DNA of 64,000 nucleotides. It comes from Hyphomonas sp. Lineage in GTDB: Bacteria; Pseudomonadota; Alphaproteobacteria; Caulobacterales; Hyphomonadaceae. Numbering within the stretch: the stretch's first letter is position 1; each line of letters begins with the position of its first letter. This document shows positions 13,465-22,451 of this stretch, in pieces. The notes under the pieces were generated by a model. The model did no database searches and was not told where the DNA came from. It worked only from the letters and a program-made list of their open reading frames with translations. Both the position numbers and the translations under genes were made by a program. The stretch is taken from positions 310,001 to 374,000 of the forward strand of contig NZ_WGLO01000001.1 in NCBI RefSeq assembly GCF_016125515.1, written 5' to 3'.

Positions 13465-14436
13465 GCGCGGACATTCGCCCGCCTTCGCCCGCGGCTCAAG
13501 GGGCTGGAAGCCGCTGTCCGTTTCGTAACTCTCGACGATGCCGGCAAGGCGCACGACGCCGGGACCGGCACGACGCTGGATACGCTGCCGCCACTGGACA
13601 TCGCCTTCGGCAACTCGGACGCGTTCTATTCGCCATCGGTGCGCGAGTTCATGACGGCCATTCTCAAGAGTCCGGAGTTTGACTGGTTCCAGTCCGCCGC
13701 CGCAGGCATCGAGAACCCCGGTCTGATGATGATCGGCCAGAAGGCGCGCCGGTACACGACGAATCACACCCAGTCCGAATCGATGGCCGAATGGGCGCTC
13801 TGGCAGGCGCTGGACTTCCTGCGCGAAGGTCCTGCCCACCGGGCGTTGCAGGCGCAGAATAAATGGCGACGCGTGAAGGCGCGCGAGATCCGGGGCTCGC
13901 GCTGGCTCGTGTTCGGCTATGGCTCGATCGGCCAGTCGGTCGGCCGCAGGGTTTCGGCTCTGGGCGGTGACGTGACCGGCGTGCGCCGCTCGCCGGGTCC
14001 CGCTGAAGGCGCGGCCCGCATCGTGGCGCCCGATACGCTGATGGCCGAGCTGCCGCGTGCTGATGTCGTCCTGCTCTGCCCGCCGCACACGCCGGAAACC
14101 GAGAACATGGCGAATGCGGATTTCTTTGCCGCGATGGCCCCCGGCGCCCTATTCATGAACCTGGGGCGCGGGGCGCTGGTCGACGAGGCGGCACTGGTTG
14201 CTGCGCTGGACGCCGGCCGGCCGGCCTTTGCGGCGCTCGACGTGACCCGCACCGAACCGCTGCCGCCGGACAGTCCGCTCTGGCAACATCCCCGGATCGT
14301 GATCACGCCGCATGACAGTTCCGACACGCCCGGCACGGTGGAGGGCGCAGACGACACATTTCTCGCCAACCTTTCGCGCTATGTCGCGGGCGAACCGATG
14401 AAGCACCTCGTGGATCCGGCCGCGTTCAAGACCTGA
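13444..14436 (+). CDS. D-2-hydroxyacid dehydrogenase family protein
   Basis: 330 residues from the ATG at 13444. The NAD-binding core shows the glycine motif VFGYGSIGQSVGRR, then VVLLCPPHTPETENM, the LGRGALVDEAALVAAL block with the catalytic Arg region replaced by a typical NLGRG, and a catalytic His in ITPHDSSDTP. It probably reduces 2-oxoacids with NAD(P)H; substrate unknown. It starts 21 bp inside the divergent TIGR02301 gene, and corA follows 7 bp after its stop. Homologues starting further downstream are possible, but the N-terminal domain looks complete. Confidence 0.87.
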   Translation: MKTCFLHARTFARLRPRLKGLEAAVRFVTLDDAGKAHDAGTGTTLDTLPPLDIAFGNSDAFYSPSVREFMTAILKSPEFDWFQSAAAGIENPGLMMIGQKARRYTTNHTQSESMAEWALWQALDFLREGPAHRALQAQNKWRRVKAREIRGSRWLVFGYGSIGQSVGRRVSALGGDVTGVRRSPGPAEGAARIVAPDTLMAELPRADVVLLCPPHTPETENMANADFFAAMAPGALFMNLGRGALVDEAALVAALDAGRPAFAALDVTRTEPLPPDSPLWQHPRIVITPHDSSDTPGTVEGADDTFLANLSRYVAGEPMKHLVDPAAFKT

Positions 14437-14443
14437 GGCGCAC

Positions 14444-15451
14444 ATGATCCGTACCTATGCAAACCAGTCCGGCCGGTTTGTCTTGGCGGGCGCAGACCTC
14501 GCCGCACTCGACAGCGCGGTCTGGATCGACCTGATGCGGCCGACGAAGGATGAGGAAACAGCGGTCGAACGCGCCTTCGGCATAGACGTGCCGACGCGCG
14601 AGGAGACCAGCGAGATCGAACTGTCGAGCCGGCTCTATGCTGAGGACGGCGCGCATTTCATGACCGCCATGATGCTGTCGCATACCGATGGCGACAATGT
14701 GCTGCTGTCGCCTGCAACCTTCGTGCTGGCCGGCGACAGGCTGGTGACCGTGCGGTATGAAGAGCCACGCGCCATCGACACGTTCGTGGCGCGCAGCCAG
14801 AAGGCCGGCCCGATGACGGCCGAGGCGCTGTGCGCCGGTCTGCTGGAAGCCCTGATCGAACGTTCCGGCGACGTGCTGGAACGCACCGGACATGAGCTGG
14901 ACACTGTTTCGCGCGAGATCTTCTCCATCGAGCCGCCGGTGCCGAAGGCGACCGGGGCGGCAGCCCTGCTGCTGCCGAAGCCGAAACCCAAGCCGCGCGA
15001 TTTCCAGTCCGTGCTCGAACAGATCGGCCGCAAGGGCGACCTCCTGTCGAAAGTCTATGAAAGCCTCATCTCGGTGCAGCGCTTGCTGATCTATGCGACC
15101 GCCGCTGCGCAGGCCCGCAAGGCGGACAAGGAAGCTTCCAGCCGGTTTAAGTCGCTCGCCCGGGACGTCCAGTCCCTCGTCGACCACGCCGCCTTCCTGA
15201 CCCAGAAGATCAACTTCCTGCTCGATGCAACGCTCGGCATGATCAACATCCAGCAGACTGGGATCATCAAGATCTTCTCAGTCGCGGCGGTGGTGTTCCT
15301 GCCGCCGACCCTAATCGCGTCGATCTACGGGATGAACTTCAAGGTGCTGCCGGAAATCGGCTGGCCTTACGGCTATCCGTTCGCTCTGGCGCTGATGGTC
15401 CTGTCGGCCATCGTGCCCTACCAGTTCTTCAAATGGCGCGGCTGGCTCTGA
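14444..15451 (+). CDS. corA: CorA family divalent-cation transporter
   Basis: 335 residues. The N-terminal two thirds form the cytoplasmic funnel; the C-terminus has two transmembrane segments: the first around ISVAAVVFLPPTLIASI leading into the signature YGMNF at the pore mouth, the second ALALMVLSAIVPYQF. GMN is the selectivity signature of CorA Mg2+/Co2+/Ni2+ channels; these act as pentamers in the inner membrane. It starts 7 bp after the hydroxyacid dehydrogenase and 33 bp before the aldehyde dehydrogenase, suggesting one operon. Confidence 0.93.
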   Translation: MIRTYANQSGRFVLAGADLAALDSAVWIDLMRPTKDEETAVERAFGIDVPTREETSEIELSSRLYAEDGAHFMTAMMLSHTDGDNVLLSPATFVLAGDRLVTVRYEEPRAIDTFVARSQKAGPMTAEALCAGLLEALIERSGDVLERTGHELDTVSREIFSIEPPVPKATGAAALLLPKPKPKPRDFQSVLEQIGRKGDLLSKVYESLISVQRLLIYATAAAQARKADKEASSRFKSLARDVQSLVDHAAFLTQKINFLLDATLGMINIQQTGIIKIFSVAAVVFLPPTLIASIYGMNFKVLPEIGWPYGYPFALALMVLSAIVPYQFFKWRGWL

Positions 15452-15484
15452 GGCCGGCGCCGTTCAATTCCGGAGGATGATTTC

Positions 15485-16858
15485 ATGCCCGACCGTCAGG
15501 TCGCTTCCGTCAATCCCGCCACCGGCGAGACGATCGAAACCTTCACGCCGCTTGCCAATGCCGCCATCGATTCGGCGTTGGCGCGGGCCGAGGCGCAGTT
15601 CGCCAGCTGGCGGCTGACCCCGTTTGCGCAGCGCGCGGACCTGATGCGCAAGGCGGCAGCGGTGCTTGAGGCCCGCCGCGATGTCTATGCGCGCGACATG
15701 GTGCTGGAGATGGGCAAACCGCTCGCGCAGGCAGAAGCGGAGATCTACAAGTGCGCCCTCGTCTGCCGGCACTATGCGGATCATGCCGAAGGATACCTGA
15801 GCGACGAGGTGATTCGCACCGAGGCGAAGTCCGCCTATGTGCGCCACCTGCCGATGGGGCCGGTGCTGGCAGTGATGCCGTGGAACTTCCCGTTCTGGCA
15901 GGTTTTCCGCTTTGCTGCGCCGACCCTGATGGCGGGCAATGTGGGCCTGCTCAAGCACGCCTCGAACGTCTGGCGCTGCGCGCTTCATATCGAAGACGTG
16001 TTCCGCGAGGCCGGGTTTCCGGAGGGCTGTTTCCAGACGCTGCTGATCGGGTCGGGCGCCGTGAAAGGCGTAATCGGGGATCGCCGCGTGCGGGCGGTGA
16101 CGCTGACCGGATCGGGCCCGGCTGGGCGCAGTGTGGCGGCCGCGGCGGGCGATGCCCTGAAGCCCAGCCTGCTCGAACTCGGCGGGGCGGACGCCTTCAT
16201 CGTGATGCCCTCTGCCGACCTGCCGAAAGCGGTTGAGACGGCGGTGAACGCGCGGGTGCGCAACAACGGCCAGTCCGGCATCGCGGCCAAGCGTTTCCTG
16301 GTGCACGCCGATGTGTACGACGAGTTCAGAACGCGGTTCGTCGCCGCGTTCGCGGCCTTGAAGGTCGGCGATCCGATGGACCGCGCCTCTGATGTCGGCC
16401 CGCTGGCCACGTCGAAGATCCGCGACAAGCTGGCCCAGCAGGTCGATGCGAGTGTGGCAGCGGGTGCGCGCCGCCTGACGCCGCTGCAGGCGTTGCCGGA
16501 CAAAGGCTGGTGGTTTGCGCCGCAGATCCTCGAAGCGCCGCCTGCCGGGTCGCCCGCCGCCGAGGAGGAAACCTTCGGGCCGGTCGCCAGCCTCTGGCGG
16601 GCGACCAGTCTCGAAGATGCCATCACCGCCGCAAATGACAGCCCCTACGGTCTCGGCTCGGCAATCTTCACGCAGGACCAGGGCGATATCGACCAGGCCG
16701 TGCGCGATCTCGATGCTGGATCGACCTTCGTCAACGCGCTGGTCGCCTCTGATCCGCGACTGCCCTTCGGCGGCGTGAAGGAGTCCGGCTTCGGCCGCGA
16801 ACTGGCCGCAGACGGCATCCGCGCCTTCATGAATCGCAAGACGGTGTCGATCAGCTAG
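15485..16858 (+). CDS. Succinate-semialdehyde dehydrogenase-like protein lacking the catalytic Cys
   Basis: 457 residues, full ALDH length, most like YneI/Sad-type succinate-semialdehyde dehydrogenases. Seen in order: PWNFPFW with the oxyanion Asn (N134), LLKHASN with the NAD-binding Lys (K157), GSGPAGRSV, LELGGADAF with the general-base Glu (E231), and EETFGPVA and GGVKESGFGREL at the C-terminus. In the nucleophile motif, normally GQxC, the sequence reads NNGQSGIAAKRF: residue 265 is Gly, codon GGC at 16277-16279. Without the Cys, thioester chemistry should fail. The rest is intact, so this is either a pseudoenzyme, a repurposed binder, or a TGC-to-GGC sequence error. Confidence 0.9.
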   Translation: MPDRQVASVNPATGETIETFTPLANAAIDSALARAEAQFASWRLTPFAQRADLMRKAAAVLEARRDVYARDMVLEMGKPLAQAEAEIYKCALVCRHYADHAEGYLSDEVIRTEAKSAYVRHLPMGPVLAVMPWNFPFWQVFRFAAPTLMAGNVGLLKHASNVWRCALHIEDVFREAGFPEGCFQTLLIGSGAVKGVIGDRRVRAVTLTGSGPAGRSVAAAAGDALKPSLLELGGADAFIVMPSADLPKAVETAVNARVRNNGQSGIAAKRFLVHADVYDEFRTRFVAAFAALKVGDPMDRASDVGPLATSKIRDKLAQQVDASVAAGARRLTPLQALPDKGWWFAPQILEAPPAGSPAAEEETFGPVASLWRATSLEDAITAANDSPYGLGSAIFTQDQGDIDQAVRDLDAGSTFVNALVASDPRLPFGGVKESGFGRELAADGIRAFMNRKTVSIS

Positions 16859-16864
16859 CCAGGG

Positions 16865-17851
16865 TCAGGCGGGCGTCTTTGCCCGAAGGCCGTTCATGCG
16901 GTCGATCGAGGCTTCGGCGTCGCGCATGATGTCGGCCACGATGGCGGCGACCGGTTTCACCTCGCGCACACCGCCGGCTGACTGGCCCATGGCGAAGCAG
17001 GACTTGTCCATCGAAAGCTTTGCCTCGTCGGTGATGCCGCCGATGCCGCCGATCACGCCGGTCCGGGTCGAATGGATGGCCTGGTGCGGGAAGGGTTGAA
17101 TGTCCTGCGGGCGGCTTTCCCAGTCATTGATATAGTCGTTGGTGCGGCAGCGCATTGGCTTGCCCGAATAGCAGCGCGTGCGGGTCGTGTCGGTGTCGCC
17201 CGCTTCGACGACGGCGTTCTTGTACATATTCGCAGCGTGGGCTTCGGCCGAGGCGATGAAGCGGGTGCCCATCCAGACGCCTTCGGCGCCCAGCGCGAGG
17301 GCGGCGGCCAGGCCGCGCCCGTCATAGATGCCGCCGGCCGCGATCACCGGGATCTTCACAGCTTCGACCGCCTGGGCGACCAGTGGCATGGTGCCGACAA
17401 GGCCCGTATGCCCGCCGCCTTCGCCGCCCTGCAGGATCACTGCATCGCAACCGGCCTCCTCGGCCTTGATCGCGTGCTTCACGGCGCCGCCGACGACCAT
17501 CACCTTTACGCCGGCATCTTTTAGCCGTTTCATGATCGGCAGGGGCACGCCGAGACCGGCAACGAACGAGTCGGCGCCGCCTTTGATGATCACGTCGACT
17601 GATTCTTCGAGGCTCTCGGGGCTGGCGGCCAGCAGGTCCACACCGAACGGCTTGCCGGGGGCGAGTTCTTTCACCTTCTTCATCTGCCCGGCGATGAAGT
17701 CCGGCCCGGTTCCCGCCATGCCGAGCACGCCGTAGCCGCCAGCATTGCACATCGCGGCGCAGACTTCGGCGTAGGAGACGCCGCCCATCCCCGCGAGCAT
17801 GATCGGGTGCTGGACTTTCAGCATTTCGGTGAGGCGGGTCTTCAGGGCCAT
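16865..17851 (-). CDS. NAD(P)H-dependent flavin oxidoreductase / nitronate monooxygenase-like
   Basis: 328 residues from the ATG at 17851, with GGAG upstream. FMN-binding TIM-barrel of the 2-nitropropane dioxygenase class: HPIMLAGMGGVSYAEV at the start, VMVVGGAVKHAIKAEEAGCDAVILQGGEGGGHTG, VPVIAAGGIYDGRGLAAALALGAEGVWMGTRF and the conserved RCYSGKPMR. Proteins of this subgroup are annotated as nitronate monooxygenases or as enoyl reductase-like enzymes; true substrate unknown. Convergent with the aldehyde dehydrogenase gene, 6 bp apart. Confidence 0.88.
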   Translation of the reverse strand: MALKTRLTEMLKVQHPIMLAGMGGVSYAEVCAAMCNAGGYGVLGMAGTGPDFIAGQMKKVKELAPGKPFGVDLLAASPESLEESVDVIIKGGADSFVAGLGVPLPIMKRLKDAGVKVMVVGGAVKHAIKAEEAGCDAVILQGGEGGGHTGLVGTMPLVAQAVEAVKIPVIAAGGIYDGRGLAAALALGAEGVWMGTRFIASAEAHAANMYKNAVVEAGDTDTTRTRCYSGKPMRCRTNDYINDWESRPQDIQPFPHQAIHSTRTGVIGGIGGITDEAKLSMDKSCFAMGQSAGGVREVKPVAAIVADIMRDAEASIDRMNGLRAKTPA

Positions 17852-18064
17852 GGGGATCTCCAGTTTGACAGGGTGAAATAGACTGCCCAATCCTTAGGCT
17901 GGCGCCGCCACGTCAACGCAAGCATCTTCATCAATCTGCACATTGAGACGCATTTAGAACAGATTTGCCGTGTCTTTGCCGCAATCTGGCCCCGATCAAT
18001 CGGCTATAGCCGGGCGTCCGCGGAATATCCCGCCGGGCAGGGTGTCAAAAAGAGGGAATCTCTC

Positions 18065-18328
18065 ATGACGAAACTGTTTGCGGGCGCTGCCGCTGCAATC
18101 CTTTTCGCGGGTGTCGCTTTCGCAGGTGAACCTGCGACTGAAACCGAAGCCGTTGAAGCTGAAGCCGCTGTTGAAGCGGTCGAAGTGGAAGCAACCGTCG
18201 AAGCCGAAGCCGCTGTCGAAGCGGTCGAAGCCGAAGCCGTAGAAGCGGCTGTCGAAGCCGAGGCTGAAGTGGCCCCGGCAGAAGCAGTGGCCGAAGAGGC
18301 TGCTACCGAAGAAGCTGCTGCAGAGTAA
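18065..18328 (+). CDS. Small, extremely acidic exported protein
   Basis: 87 residues: a signal peptide of about 20 residues (KLFAGAAAAILFAGVAFA) followed by ~67 residues composed only of Glu, Ala, Val, Thr, Pro and Gly with no basic, aromatic or polar-amide residue. The tail is a degenerate repeat of EAEA/VEAVE units and is either helical or disordered. AAGAGGGA provides a good ribosome-binding site. No family is recognised; its near neighbour at 18487 has the same design. Alternating Glu/Ala could bind cations or act as a periplasmic spacer, which is speculation. The 158-bp gap to the next gene contains no further frame I can support. Confidence 0.72.
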   Translation: MTKLFAGAAAAILFAGVAFAGEPATETEAVEAEAAVEAVEVEATVEAEAAVEAVEAEAVEAAVEAEAEVAPAEAVAEEAATEEAAAE

Positions 18329-18486: not shown

Positions 18487-18738
18487 ATGAAAAAGCTGAT
18501 CCTCGCTGCTGCCGCCGCTTCGGCACTCGTTCTCGCCGCTTGCGGCGCCACCGAAGAAGCTGCTCCGGCCGCTGAAGAAACCACCGTCGAAGAAGTGGCT
18601 CCTGAAGCTGCTCCGGTCGAAGAAGTCGTGACTGAAGAAGTCGTGACCGAAGAAGCTGCTCCGGCTGAAGAAGCTGCTCCGGCAGAAGAAGCTGCTCCGG
18701 CAGAAGAAGCTCCGGCCACCGAAGCCGCTCCTGAGTAA
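18487..18738 (+). CDS. Small, extremely acidic Glu/Ala/Pro-repeat lipoprotein
   Basis: 83 residues. Signal peptide with lipobox VLAAC, so lipid-anchored at Cys 19, then ~64 residues of Glu, Ala, Pro, Thr and Val only. The repeat EEAAPA occurs four times near the C-terminus, encoded by an 18-nt tandem unit. 20 of 21 Glu codons are GAA and most Ala codons are GCT, whereas neighbours prefer GC-ending codons, which hints at high expression. It is followed by a strong terminator. Same architecture as the 18065 protein, but lipidated. Confidence 0.78.
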   Translation: MKKLILAAAAASALVLAACGATEEAAPAAEETTVEEVAPEAAPVEEVVTEEVVTEEAAPAEEAAPAEEAAPAEEAPATEAAPE

Positions 18739-20109: not shown

Positions 20110-21371
20110 GAAGGCTTCTCCAGCAGGGCGACCGCCTCGACATGGGCAGACCACAGGAACTGGTCGATCGGATGGATACGGACGATCCGGTAGCCGCCAT
20201 CGACCAGAGTGCGCAGGTCGCGCGCCAGTGTCGCCGGATCACAGGAGACATACGCCACGCGCAGCACGGTTGAGCGAGCGATCTCGTGGCTTTGCGCAGC
20301 AGCGCCGGCGCGCGGCGGATCCAGCACGATACCGCCGAACCGGTTCAGTTCGGACGCGGCCAGCGGATTGCGGAAAAGGTCGCGCACTTCCGCCGTGACC
20401 GGCTTCAATCCATGCGCAGCGCGGGCCGAGGTTTTCAGGGCGTCGATGGCCGCTGTGTTGCCTTCGGCGGCATACACGCCGGCCCTTGCCGCAAGGCGCA
20501 GCGCAAATGTTCCGGACCCGGAGAAAAGATCAGCCACGAGGGGCGCGTCTCCGAGGTGATCGATCACCAGCTCTGCCATGTGCGCCTCGGCTTCGGCACT
20601 GGCCTGCAGGAAGCCGCCCGGCGGCGGCAGGAGCTGGGCGCTACCGGCCGGCAGGCTGGGCCTGCGCTCAGTCAGGACATCGGCGCCTTCGATGGACACG
20701 CGGGCAAACCCGGCCCGCAGCGCGGCGCTTGCCGCCTCGGCCCGGGCCAGCGCCTTCACACCCTTGGCAACGCCCGAGATGTGCAGGTCGAGCCCCGCCG
20801 CCGTCTCGGTCACCAGGAGGCCGGTCTCGTCCTTCCCGGACAGAAGGAAGCCCGCGATCTCGCGCAATCGTGGCAGGGCGGCCACGATCGCCGGCCGGAG
20901 CACGGGACATTCGTTGAGCGCGATCAGCTCGTGGCTCTTGCGGGCATGAAAGCCGAGGACGACCTGCTTGCCGCTTTTCTTCGCCGCAAGGGCGGCGCGC
21001 CGGCGTGAGCCTGGCGGCGTAATCCACGCGGCGGGAACCTCGGCCTCCAGTCCCCTAGCCTTCAGTACACGGAGGATCAGATCGCGCTTGTATTCCGCAT
21101 AAGGCGCCGACGCCATGTGCTGCAGGGTGCAGCCGCCGCAGGCGCCAAAATGCCGGCACGCGGGCGCGATCCGGTCCGGTGACGGCGAGACGACCTCCAG
21201 CAGTTTCAGCCGGTCGCCCGCACCTTCGACACGCACGGTCTCGCCGGCCAAGGTGAACGGCACGGAAACCAAAGCGCCGTTCTCCCGCGCCCGGCCGTCG
21301 CCCTGCGCGCCGACCGATTCGATGGTTAAGGTGCGCGCGGCCGAGGCAGCAGGGTCTTGCAAGGCTGGCAT
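20106..21371 (-). CDS. Class I RNA m5U methyltransferase (TrmA/RlmD family)
   Basis: 421 residues. N-terminal TRAM-like region (LTIESVGAQGDGRA), the cysteine set CRHFGACGGCTLQH typical of an Fe-S cluster, then a SAM-dependent methyltransferase domain with VADLFSGSGTFALRLA, VLDPPRAGA, and the catalytic VSCDPATLARDL whose Cys attacks uridine C6. It methylates uridine C5 in rRNA or tRNA. I cannot say whether the target is 23S U1939/U747-like or tRNA U54, so no symbol is given. Upstream partner of the Nudix gene. Confidence 0.9.
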   Translation of the reverse strand: MPALQDPAASAARTLTIESVGAQGDGRARENGALVSVPFTLAGETVRVEGAGDRLKLLEVVSPSPDRIAPACRHFGACGGCTLQHMASAPYAEYKRDLILRVLKARGLEAEVPAAWITPPGSRRRAALAAKKSGKQVVLGFHARKSHELIALNECPVLRPAIVAALPRLREIAGFLLSGKDETGLLVTETAAGLDLHISGVAKGVKALARAEAASAALRAGFARVSIEGADVLTERRPSLPAGSAQLLPPPGGFLQASAEAEAHMAELVIDHLGDAPLVADLFSGSGTFALRLAARAGVYAAEGNTAAIDALKTSARAAHGLKPVTAEVRDLFRNPLAASELNRFGGIVLDPPRAGAAAQSHEIARSTVLRVAYVSCDPATLARDLRTLVDGGYRIVRIHPIDQFLWSAHVEAVALLEKPS

Positions 21372-21449
21372 CCGTTCAGCGGGGGTGGCGGTGGCGGGTT
21401 TCCTCCGTTAGCAGGGGCAGGCTGTTCACGGAAGGAGCCTCGCCGCCCC

Positions 21450-22451
21450 ATGGCCAAGCCGAACGGAAAACGACGCAAGATCAGCCTCGCCCTGCAGGGC
21501 GGCGGTGCCCACGGTGCCTACACCTGGGGCGTGCTGGACCGGCTGAGCGCAGAAGAGAGCCTGGAGATCACCGCCATCTCCGCCACCTCGGCCGGCGCCC
21601 TGAACGCGGTGGCCTATGCCGCAGGCCTCGCCAAGGGCGGTCCGGAAGGCGCCCGCAAGGAGCTTGCCTCGCTCTGGCGGCGCGTATCGGACGCGGGCTC
21701 AGCGATGAGTGCCTTCGGCCCGGTTGGCTTCGCCATGGCGACGGCCATGCAGTCGCTGGCGAGCCCCTATGATCTCAACCCGTTCAATTTCAATCCGCTG
21801 CGCCGGCTCGTCGAGGGCGAGATCGACTTCGGCGCGGTGCACGCTTCCGGGCTCACGCTGTTCGTCTCGGCGACAAATGTTGAAACCGGCAAGGTACGGG
21901 TGTTTGCGCGCGAGGAGATCGACGCGGATGCCGTGCTCGCCTCGGCCTGCCTGCCGCAGGCCTTCCAGGCAGTGGAGATTGATGGCCATCCGTACTGGGA
22001 TGGTGGCTATATGGGAAACCCCAGCCTCTTCCCGCTGATCTATTCCGGCGCGCCGCAAGATGTGCTGCTGGTTCTGCTCAATCCGCTGGAGCGGTCCGGC
22101 ACGCCCAAGCGCGCCGCAGAGATCCAGGAGCGCCTCAACGAGATCAGCTTCAACGCTTCCCTGATCGGTGAGCTGCGCGCCATCGCCTTCGTCCAGCGCC
22201 TGATCGATGACGGCATGCTGAAAGAGCCAATGATGAAGAAATACCGCCGGCTCAACATCCACGCGATCCGCGGCGGGCAGGACCTGATCAATTATAGCCT
22301 CGCCACCAAGTATGACACGCGCTGGCGTCTGCTGACCGAACTGCGCGACAAGGGCCACACTGCAGCTGACAAATGGCTGGAGACCTGTGCCAAGGATGTC
22401 GGCACGAAGACTTCGAGCTTCGACATCCGGAGGGAGTTCCTGGAGTCGTGA
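21450..22451 (+). CDS. Patatin-like phospholipase
   Basis: 333 residues from the ATG at 21450, after GAAGGAG. Patatin core: oxyanion-hole LALQGGGAHGAYTWGVLD at the N-terminus, the nucleophile segment ISATSAGALNAVAYAAG (GxSxG with Ala at the first position), and DGGYMGNPSL with the catalytic Asp near residue 190. It hydrolyses acyl ester bonds of lipids with a Ser-Asp dyad. No signal peptide, so cytoplasmic. The C-terminus matches bacterial patatins of this length. Convergent with rsmD, 9 bp apart. Confidence 0.9.
   Translation: MAKPNGKRRKISLALQGGGAHGAYTWGVLDRLSAEESLEITAISATSAGALNAVAYAAGLAKGGPEGARKELASLWRRVSDAGSAMSAFGPVGFAMATAMQSLASPYDLNPFNFNPLRRLVEGEIDFGAVHASGLTLFVSATNVETGKVRVFAREEIDADAVLASACLPQAFQAVEIDGHPYWDGGYMGNPSLFPLIYSGAPQDVLLVLLNPLERSGTPKRAAEIQERLNEISFNASLIGELRAIAFVQRLIDDGMLKEPMMKKYRRLNIHAIRGGQDLINYSLATKYDTRWRLLTELRDKGHTAADKWLETCAKDVGTKTSSFDIRREFLES

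Follow-up and report, generated by a model that had tools for sequence, protein, structure and literature searches.

A succinate-semialdehyde dehydrogenase-like gene of Hyphomonas sp. with glycine at the position of the catalytic cysteine

The loss of the catalytic cysteine from an otherwise complete aldehyde dehydrogenase (ALDH) raises the question of whether such a gene is a broken enzyme, a protein with another use or simply a misread base. This question is posed by a gene of Hyphomonas sp. located in a stretch of 64,000 nucleotides (contig NZ_WGLO01000001.1 of assembly GCF_016125515.1, positions 310,001 to 374,000), which is the whole DNA analysed here and is referred to as the window. The gene occupies positions 15485..16858 of the + strand, and its open reading frame (ORF) runs from an ATG start to the stop without interruption, encoding 457 amino acids. 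On the basis of the ORF and of Pfam, NCBIfam and PDB matches, the protein is closest to the PRK09406-like (SySSADH-type) succinic semialdehyde dehydrogenases (SSADH). The window lies on a contig of 413,638 bases, in a genome of 26 contigs and 3.22 Mb rated 99.98% complete with 0.01% contamination.

The GQxC motif that carries the nucleophile in active ALDH and SSADH proteins is altered in this gene. Codon 265 (16277..16279, + strand) is GGC and encodes Gly where the family has the nucleophilic Cys (TGC or TGT); the DNA at the site reads ...aacaacggccagtccggcatcgcggcc..., which corresponds to N N G Q S G I A A. Both the ORF and the family alignment thus bear out the preliminary description of this DNA, which had placed a glycine, encoded by GGC, at residue 265. 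Cys is found at this position in all 108 family rows that are at least 50% identical and span the site (107 of them distinct, as L030 and L040 are one contig), without a second case of Gly265. These rows come from whole-genome searches of relatives (60 genomes plus the own genome) and of the genus (41 plus its own), and from named-genome loci, of which the best 80 of at least 585 confirmed loci were read. The eight other ALDHs found in the own genome all have Cys at the nucleophile position as well. Over the 107 rows read, the nucleophile codon is TGC in 83 and TGT in 24, and within the 24 relatives of the same genus it is TGC in 21 and TGT in three, so that a single T>G change would be enough to produce GGC, as had been proposed from the sequence alone.

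Beyond the alignment, a degenerate pattern for GQxG was scanned against 385 alphaproteobacterial genomes, giving 11 sites in 11 genomes, of which only the window's own site belongs to an ALDH; the other 10 were set aside as chance-like once the window protein had been searched by tblastn and the ORFs had been read. The absence of Gly265 elsewhere is weak evidence, because the control pattern, with Cys instead of Gly, recovers the family incompletely (16 sites, not individually checked, in 15 of the 385 genomes). The preliminary description had also suggested checking close homologues. Cys is present in every homologue sampled, yet this does not refute Gly in the present species, because the nearest relative found is only 72% identical at the protein level. 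Neither a natural Cys-to-Gly SSADH nor this gene itself was the subject of any paper found in a limited literature search; the expression "replaced by glycine", where it occurs in PMC8269274 and PMC12718228, refers to other residues.

The remaining active-site residues are preserved. The alignment agrees with the preliminary description in that the oxyanion Asn (codon 134, 15884..15886), the cofactor-binding Lys (codon 157, 15953..15955) and the general base Glu (codon 231, 16175..16177), all on the + strand, are kept. The enzyme of Cyanothece (cce4228), for which PMC7510979 names the residues W130, N131, W135, R139, K154, S157, S207, E228, E360 and S420 besides C262, offers a wider comparison: by an ungapped alignment and our reading of the numbering offset, equivalents of all of them are present and only that of C262 is absent. 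These include the counterparts of the substrate residues Arg142, Ser422 and Trp138 and of the cofactor residues Lys157 and Ser160, with the roles given in that source. Nevertheless, a second near-invariant residue, not mentioned in the preliminary description, is altered: codon 235 (16187..16189, + strand), four residues past Glu231, is GCG and encodes Ala, whereas 106 of the 108 relatives have Ser and two have Thr. As the codon is TCG in 15 of the 24 genus relatives, this Ser235Ala replacement may also have arisen by a T>G change, and it may be linked to the loss of the cysteine.

Concerning the rest of the protein, the window sequence agrees at 90 of the 93 columns whose conservation reaches 98%, the departures being T73V, S235A and C265G. 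Three or more departures at these columns also occur in seven of the 108 other rows, and T73V is shared with one genus relative (L011). In the ALDH tree the end branch of the window is 0.31 long and its nearest relative lies 0.62 away by path. On average the window protein is 70.0, 65.3 and 68.2% identical to the members of the three Cys-bearing clades in the genus, which is close to the values between those clades (66.5, 68.4 and 66.3%). Besides, the nonsynonymous (dN) and synonymous (dS) divergences between the window and seven relatives are 0.21-0.29 and 0.81-1.35, respectively, overlapping with those of three Cys-bearing pairs (dN 0.23-0.27, dS 1.02-1.29), although the comparison of dN/dS is rough because dS is high (0.81-1.35). 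A long period of relaxed evolution is therefore disfavoured by the divergence and by the conservation counts, in which neither long decay nor acceleration is seen. An AlphaFold2 model built on an alignment of 23 sequences has a mean predicted local distance difference test score (pLDDT) of 91.9 and a predicted template modelling score (pTM) of 0.91, and it superposes on the SSADH 3vz3 with a TM-score of 0.97 and 52% identity over 452 alignment columns, a predicted fold showing neither activity nor stability. A further locus, L100, was considered as a broken member of the family and rejected, since its stop, in the third codon of the alignment, precedes the probable start.

The assignment to the ALDH superfamily is clear from the Pfam Aldedh domain (PF00171), which covers residues 4-454 with 425.9 bits against a gathering cut-off of 23. 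The nearest curated model, NF006915 of NCBIfam (PRK09406, NADP-dependent SSADH), scores 620.3 bits, below its cut-off of 730 bits, so the protein falls outside that model; this shortfall is not explained by the loss of Cys alone, because the Cys-bearing orthologue L122 is also below the cut-off (631.1 bits). Among solved structures, the SSADH chains 3vz3, 3vz1 and 4it9 are the closest. A role in the γ-aminobutyric acid (GABA) pathway is without support, as no GABA transaminase scores over the cut-off in the own genome; the best match of that type belongs to the ectoine EctB family, further matches lying on contig C12. On viral contigs there is one partial match (47%) that ends short of residue 265, and the best matches on plasmids are less than 60% identical.

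From a mechanistic point of view, catalysis by ALDHs begins with attack of the thiol on the aldehyde; hydride is then transferred to NAD(P)+, and Glu assists in hydrolysing the resulting thioester (PMC8160307). According to PMC7510979, the Cys262Ala variant of cce4228 is inactive toward succinic semialdehyde, and so are Glu228Ala and Asn131Ala. No dehydrogenase activity would be expected from the window protein, because without the thiol the first step fails and because the equivalent Cys262Ala replacement is inactive. The claim that the change abolishes thiohemiacetal chemistry is consequently well supported, by the established mechanism as well as by the mutant described in that source. The best reading is that of a real protein that would be unable to carry out dehydrogenase chemistry.

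The gene also lies out of place, an aspect that adds to the preliminary description. In all 24 genus relatives rsmE directly adjoins the ALDH gene, and ubiA lies on its other side, either directly (less than about 150 bp; 17 of 24) or 0.7-4.2 kb away (six of 24), and the stretch of the remaining one, L128, showed no ubiA. Henriciella mobilis has the same rsmE-ALDH-ubiA order. Neither neighbour is found in the flanks of about 1.5 kb of four more distant loci at the level of the order (L032-L035), which limits the demonstrated arrangement to Hyphomonas and Henriciella. In the genome of the window and in 15 others that share its CorA gene, rsmE and ubiA are adjacent with no ALDH between them. At the rsmE-ubiA spot the distribution of the ALDH in the genus is thus two-state, with the gene present in the 24 relatives and H. 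mobilis and absent in 16 genomes.

The window ALDH sits instead between corA and a nitronate monooxygenase-like gene, an arrangement found in none of the 14 other corA-bearing genomes fetched at length; in the fifteenth (G029) corA and the nitronate monooxygenase-like gene are side by side without ALDH. This junction is itself variable in the clade (L185-L198), with a gap of 27-76 bp in five of the 14 genomes and of 0.5-6.7 kb in nine, and each of the three longer gaps scanned for ORFs (G014, G023, G001) contains a Kup-type K+ transporter gene. The ALDH occurs in 25 of 42 genus genomes (E 1e-120) and the CorA of the window in 16 of 42 (E 1e-60), both being found together, at these thresholds, only in the window genome; the other 17 genomes lack an ALDH orthologue, some of these assemblies being incomplete. 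The tree of RsmE and UbiA places the window inside the corA-bearing clade (Shimodaira-Hasegawa-like approximate likelihood-ratio support, SH-aLRT, 99), whereas in the ALDH tree it forms its own lineage beside three ALDH-bearing clades, with support of 96/93 for the whole group. Taken together, the location and the two trees indicate that the window ALDH was either acquired or moved. The identity of the window to the three other clades is 67.6, 65.5 and 67.4% for RsmE and 66.6, 69.4 and 64.6% for UbiA, and that of the ALDH is similar, a level that would suit either an old own copy that was moved and lost in its kin or an equally deep donor. A gain by transfer needs fewer events than an old move within the genome.

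Several explanations can be offered for these data, and we give somewhat better than even chances to a recent inactivation, by a single T>G change, of a dispensable, moved or acquired SSADH-like gene. It is the simplest account, because the protein is otherwise kept and 17 of the 42 genus genomes do without the gene, and among the options raised from the sequence alone (a pseudoenzyme or sensor, a recent loss or a sequencing error) recent loss fits best, positive evidence for a sensor or another retained function being absent. Under this explanation, the nucleophilic Cys265 of an SSADH-like enzyme would have been lost by one transversion, at a time that, judging from the lack of acceleration, would be recent relative to the age of the lineage, and in a copy that lies outside the usual place in its relatives and is dispensable in the genus. 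With the predicted fold and the remaining ligand residues preserved, the protein would still adopt its structure and would probably retain the binding of NAD(P)+ and aldehyde; formation of the thiohemiacetal and of the thioester would be impossible, so that aldehydes would not be oxidised, and the gene would most likely have just begun to decay, a new pseudoenzyme maintained by selection being the less likely state. Several points weigh against recent inactivation. The long branch, with a nearest relative of 72% identity, gives no direct date for the loss. The absence of stops and frameshifts and the preserved G+C pattern by codon position would equally be expected of an actively selected protein. 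Given its closeness to the catalytic Glu, Ser235Ala could reflect adaptation linked to the loss and not drift, and a base error would give the same picture. Besides, the window departs at eight of the 194 columns that are invariant in the 24 genus relatives, which leans to some relaxation; the figure for seven neighbouring genes is 25 of 1415, counted over columns without variation in 10 or more kin of their own clade, and the difference does not amount to clear relaxation because the genome sets differ and those used for the ALDH are more distant.

Selection may, on the other hand, have retained the protein for binding after the loss of catalysis, as an aldehyde or NADP sensor, a scaffold or an inactive partner subunit, which we regard as unlikely. 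The rest of the protein is about as conserved as in Cys-bearing relatives, the predicted fold is of high confidence (pLDDT 91.9) with the substrate and cofactor residues kept, and there are precedents in human ALDH16A1 and in the Cys-to-Ser/Pro ALDHs of GRM1 loci with two such enzymes. However, Gly265 is seen in one genome only, both among the 108 rows and in the low-reach scan of 385 genomes, so that the loss is not seen across a lineage in the sampled members, the nearest of which is 72% identical; the own genome lacks a close paralogue for pairing (its best other ALDH is 33% identical), and no regulator was seen among the eight scanned neighbours (GGT, 2-hydroxyacid dehydrogenase, CorA, nitronate monooxygenase-like, SDR, RlmD-like, a weakly patatin-like protein and RsmD). 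A more elaborate proposal, in which one base change turned the moved or acquired SSADH into a selected, Cys-less sensor or sink for NADP and semialdehyde, cotranscribed with CorA and retuned in part by Ser235Ala, is held to be quite improbable. An error of base calling or assembly, by which the true codon would be Cys and the enzyme ordinary and active, is improbable too. One base separates GGC from the most frequent of the conserved codons, the gene otherwise evolves as its active relatives do and both odd changes (235 and 265) could be T>G, an error class known for some sequencers. Nevertheless, there is no excess of T>G nearby (one of 31 base changes at the 25 departing columns of the seven neighbouring genes), the contig is long, completeness is high and contamination low, and a random hit on just this codon would be unlikely beforehand, though the finding was picked for its oddness. 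As for catalysis by another route, such as water activated by Glu231, hydride transfer to NADP+ from a gem-diol without a thiol, or a different nucleophile, the retention of Glu231, Asn134 and the cofactor Lys would allow for it, but the Cys-to-Ala mutant of the relative is inactive as described in PMC7510979 and, in the sequence, Cys occurs only at positions 90, 94, 165 and 182, none near the site, which makes this option very unlikely.

Compared with known systems, the window protein resembles the SySSADH/sp2771-type SSADHs (3vz1-3vz3, 4it9, 4itb) and cce4228 in fold and in the named residues save the nucleophile, and differs from the SySSADH type by a natural Gly for Cys and by Ala for Ser235. 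A Cys-less form of this fold has already been solved, since the nucleophilic Cys of 3vz1 corresponds to Ala in the 3vz3 chain. Human ALDH16A1 is described as an ALDH without the catalytic Cys, proposed to work by binding (PMC10650815, PMC8160307). ALDH16 proteins bear a large extra C-terminal domain, whereas the window protein, of 457 amino acids, consists of the single Aldedh stretch 4-454 without any extra ALDH-like domain; ALDH16A1 is also said to have none of the catalytic residues, whereas the window protein keeps Glu and Asn. In the GRM1 bacterial microcompartment loci, as reported in PMC4207490, the nucleophilic Cys of the second aldehyde dehydrogenase is changed to Ser or Pro. These are, like the present one, bacterial ALDHs with a substituted nucleophile, but the GRM1 cases recur and that of the window is single. 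Neither shell proteins of microcompartments nor a partner aldehyde dehydrogenase were found among the eight scanned neighbours, the rest of the genome not having been searched for shell proteins.

With regard to the surroundings of the gene, the left neighbour (14444..15451, + strand) encodes a CorA-like Mg2+/Co2+ transporter (PF01544, 158.5 bits; TIGR00383, 179.3 bits, below the cut-off of 200.75). The 33-nt gap between its stop and the ALDH start (15452..15484, + strand) contains a GGAGG stretch that resembles a ribosome-binding site, and both features suggest that the ALDH is co-transcribed with corA. A search for sigma-70-like promoters, the only type covered, gave none in 14200-17000, where 0.2 would be expected by chance. 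The right neighbour is a convergent nitronate monooxygenase/FabK-like gene (16865..17890, - strand; PF03060, 204.7 bits; TIGR03151, 236.2 bits, below the cut-off of 453.1). Further on, two short + strand ORFs (18065-18328 and 18487-18738) have signal-like starts followed by low-complexity tails rich in Ala and Glu, the second being a small lipoprotein by the look of its translation, and the protein encoded at 21357-22451 weakly matches a patatin-like family (20.3 bits) and a model of CBASS phospholipases (30.2 bits, against a cut-off of 200).

ALDHs that lack the nucleophile have been described before, and the window adds another, which belongs to an SSADH-like family and stands alone so far; being an isolated case from one genome, it leaves the existing knowledge of ALDHs unchanged. 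Provided that the base is real, the gene would offer a clean natural example of an enzyme soon after the loss of catalysis, with its sequence otherwise intact and Cys-bearing relatives available for comparison, and it would caution that the label succinate-semialdehyde dehydrogenase, when assigned to such genes automatically, can mislead.
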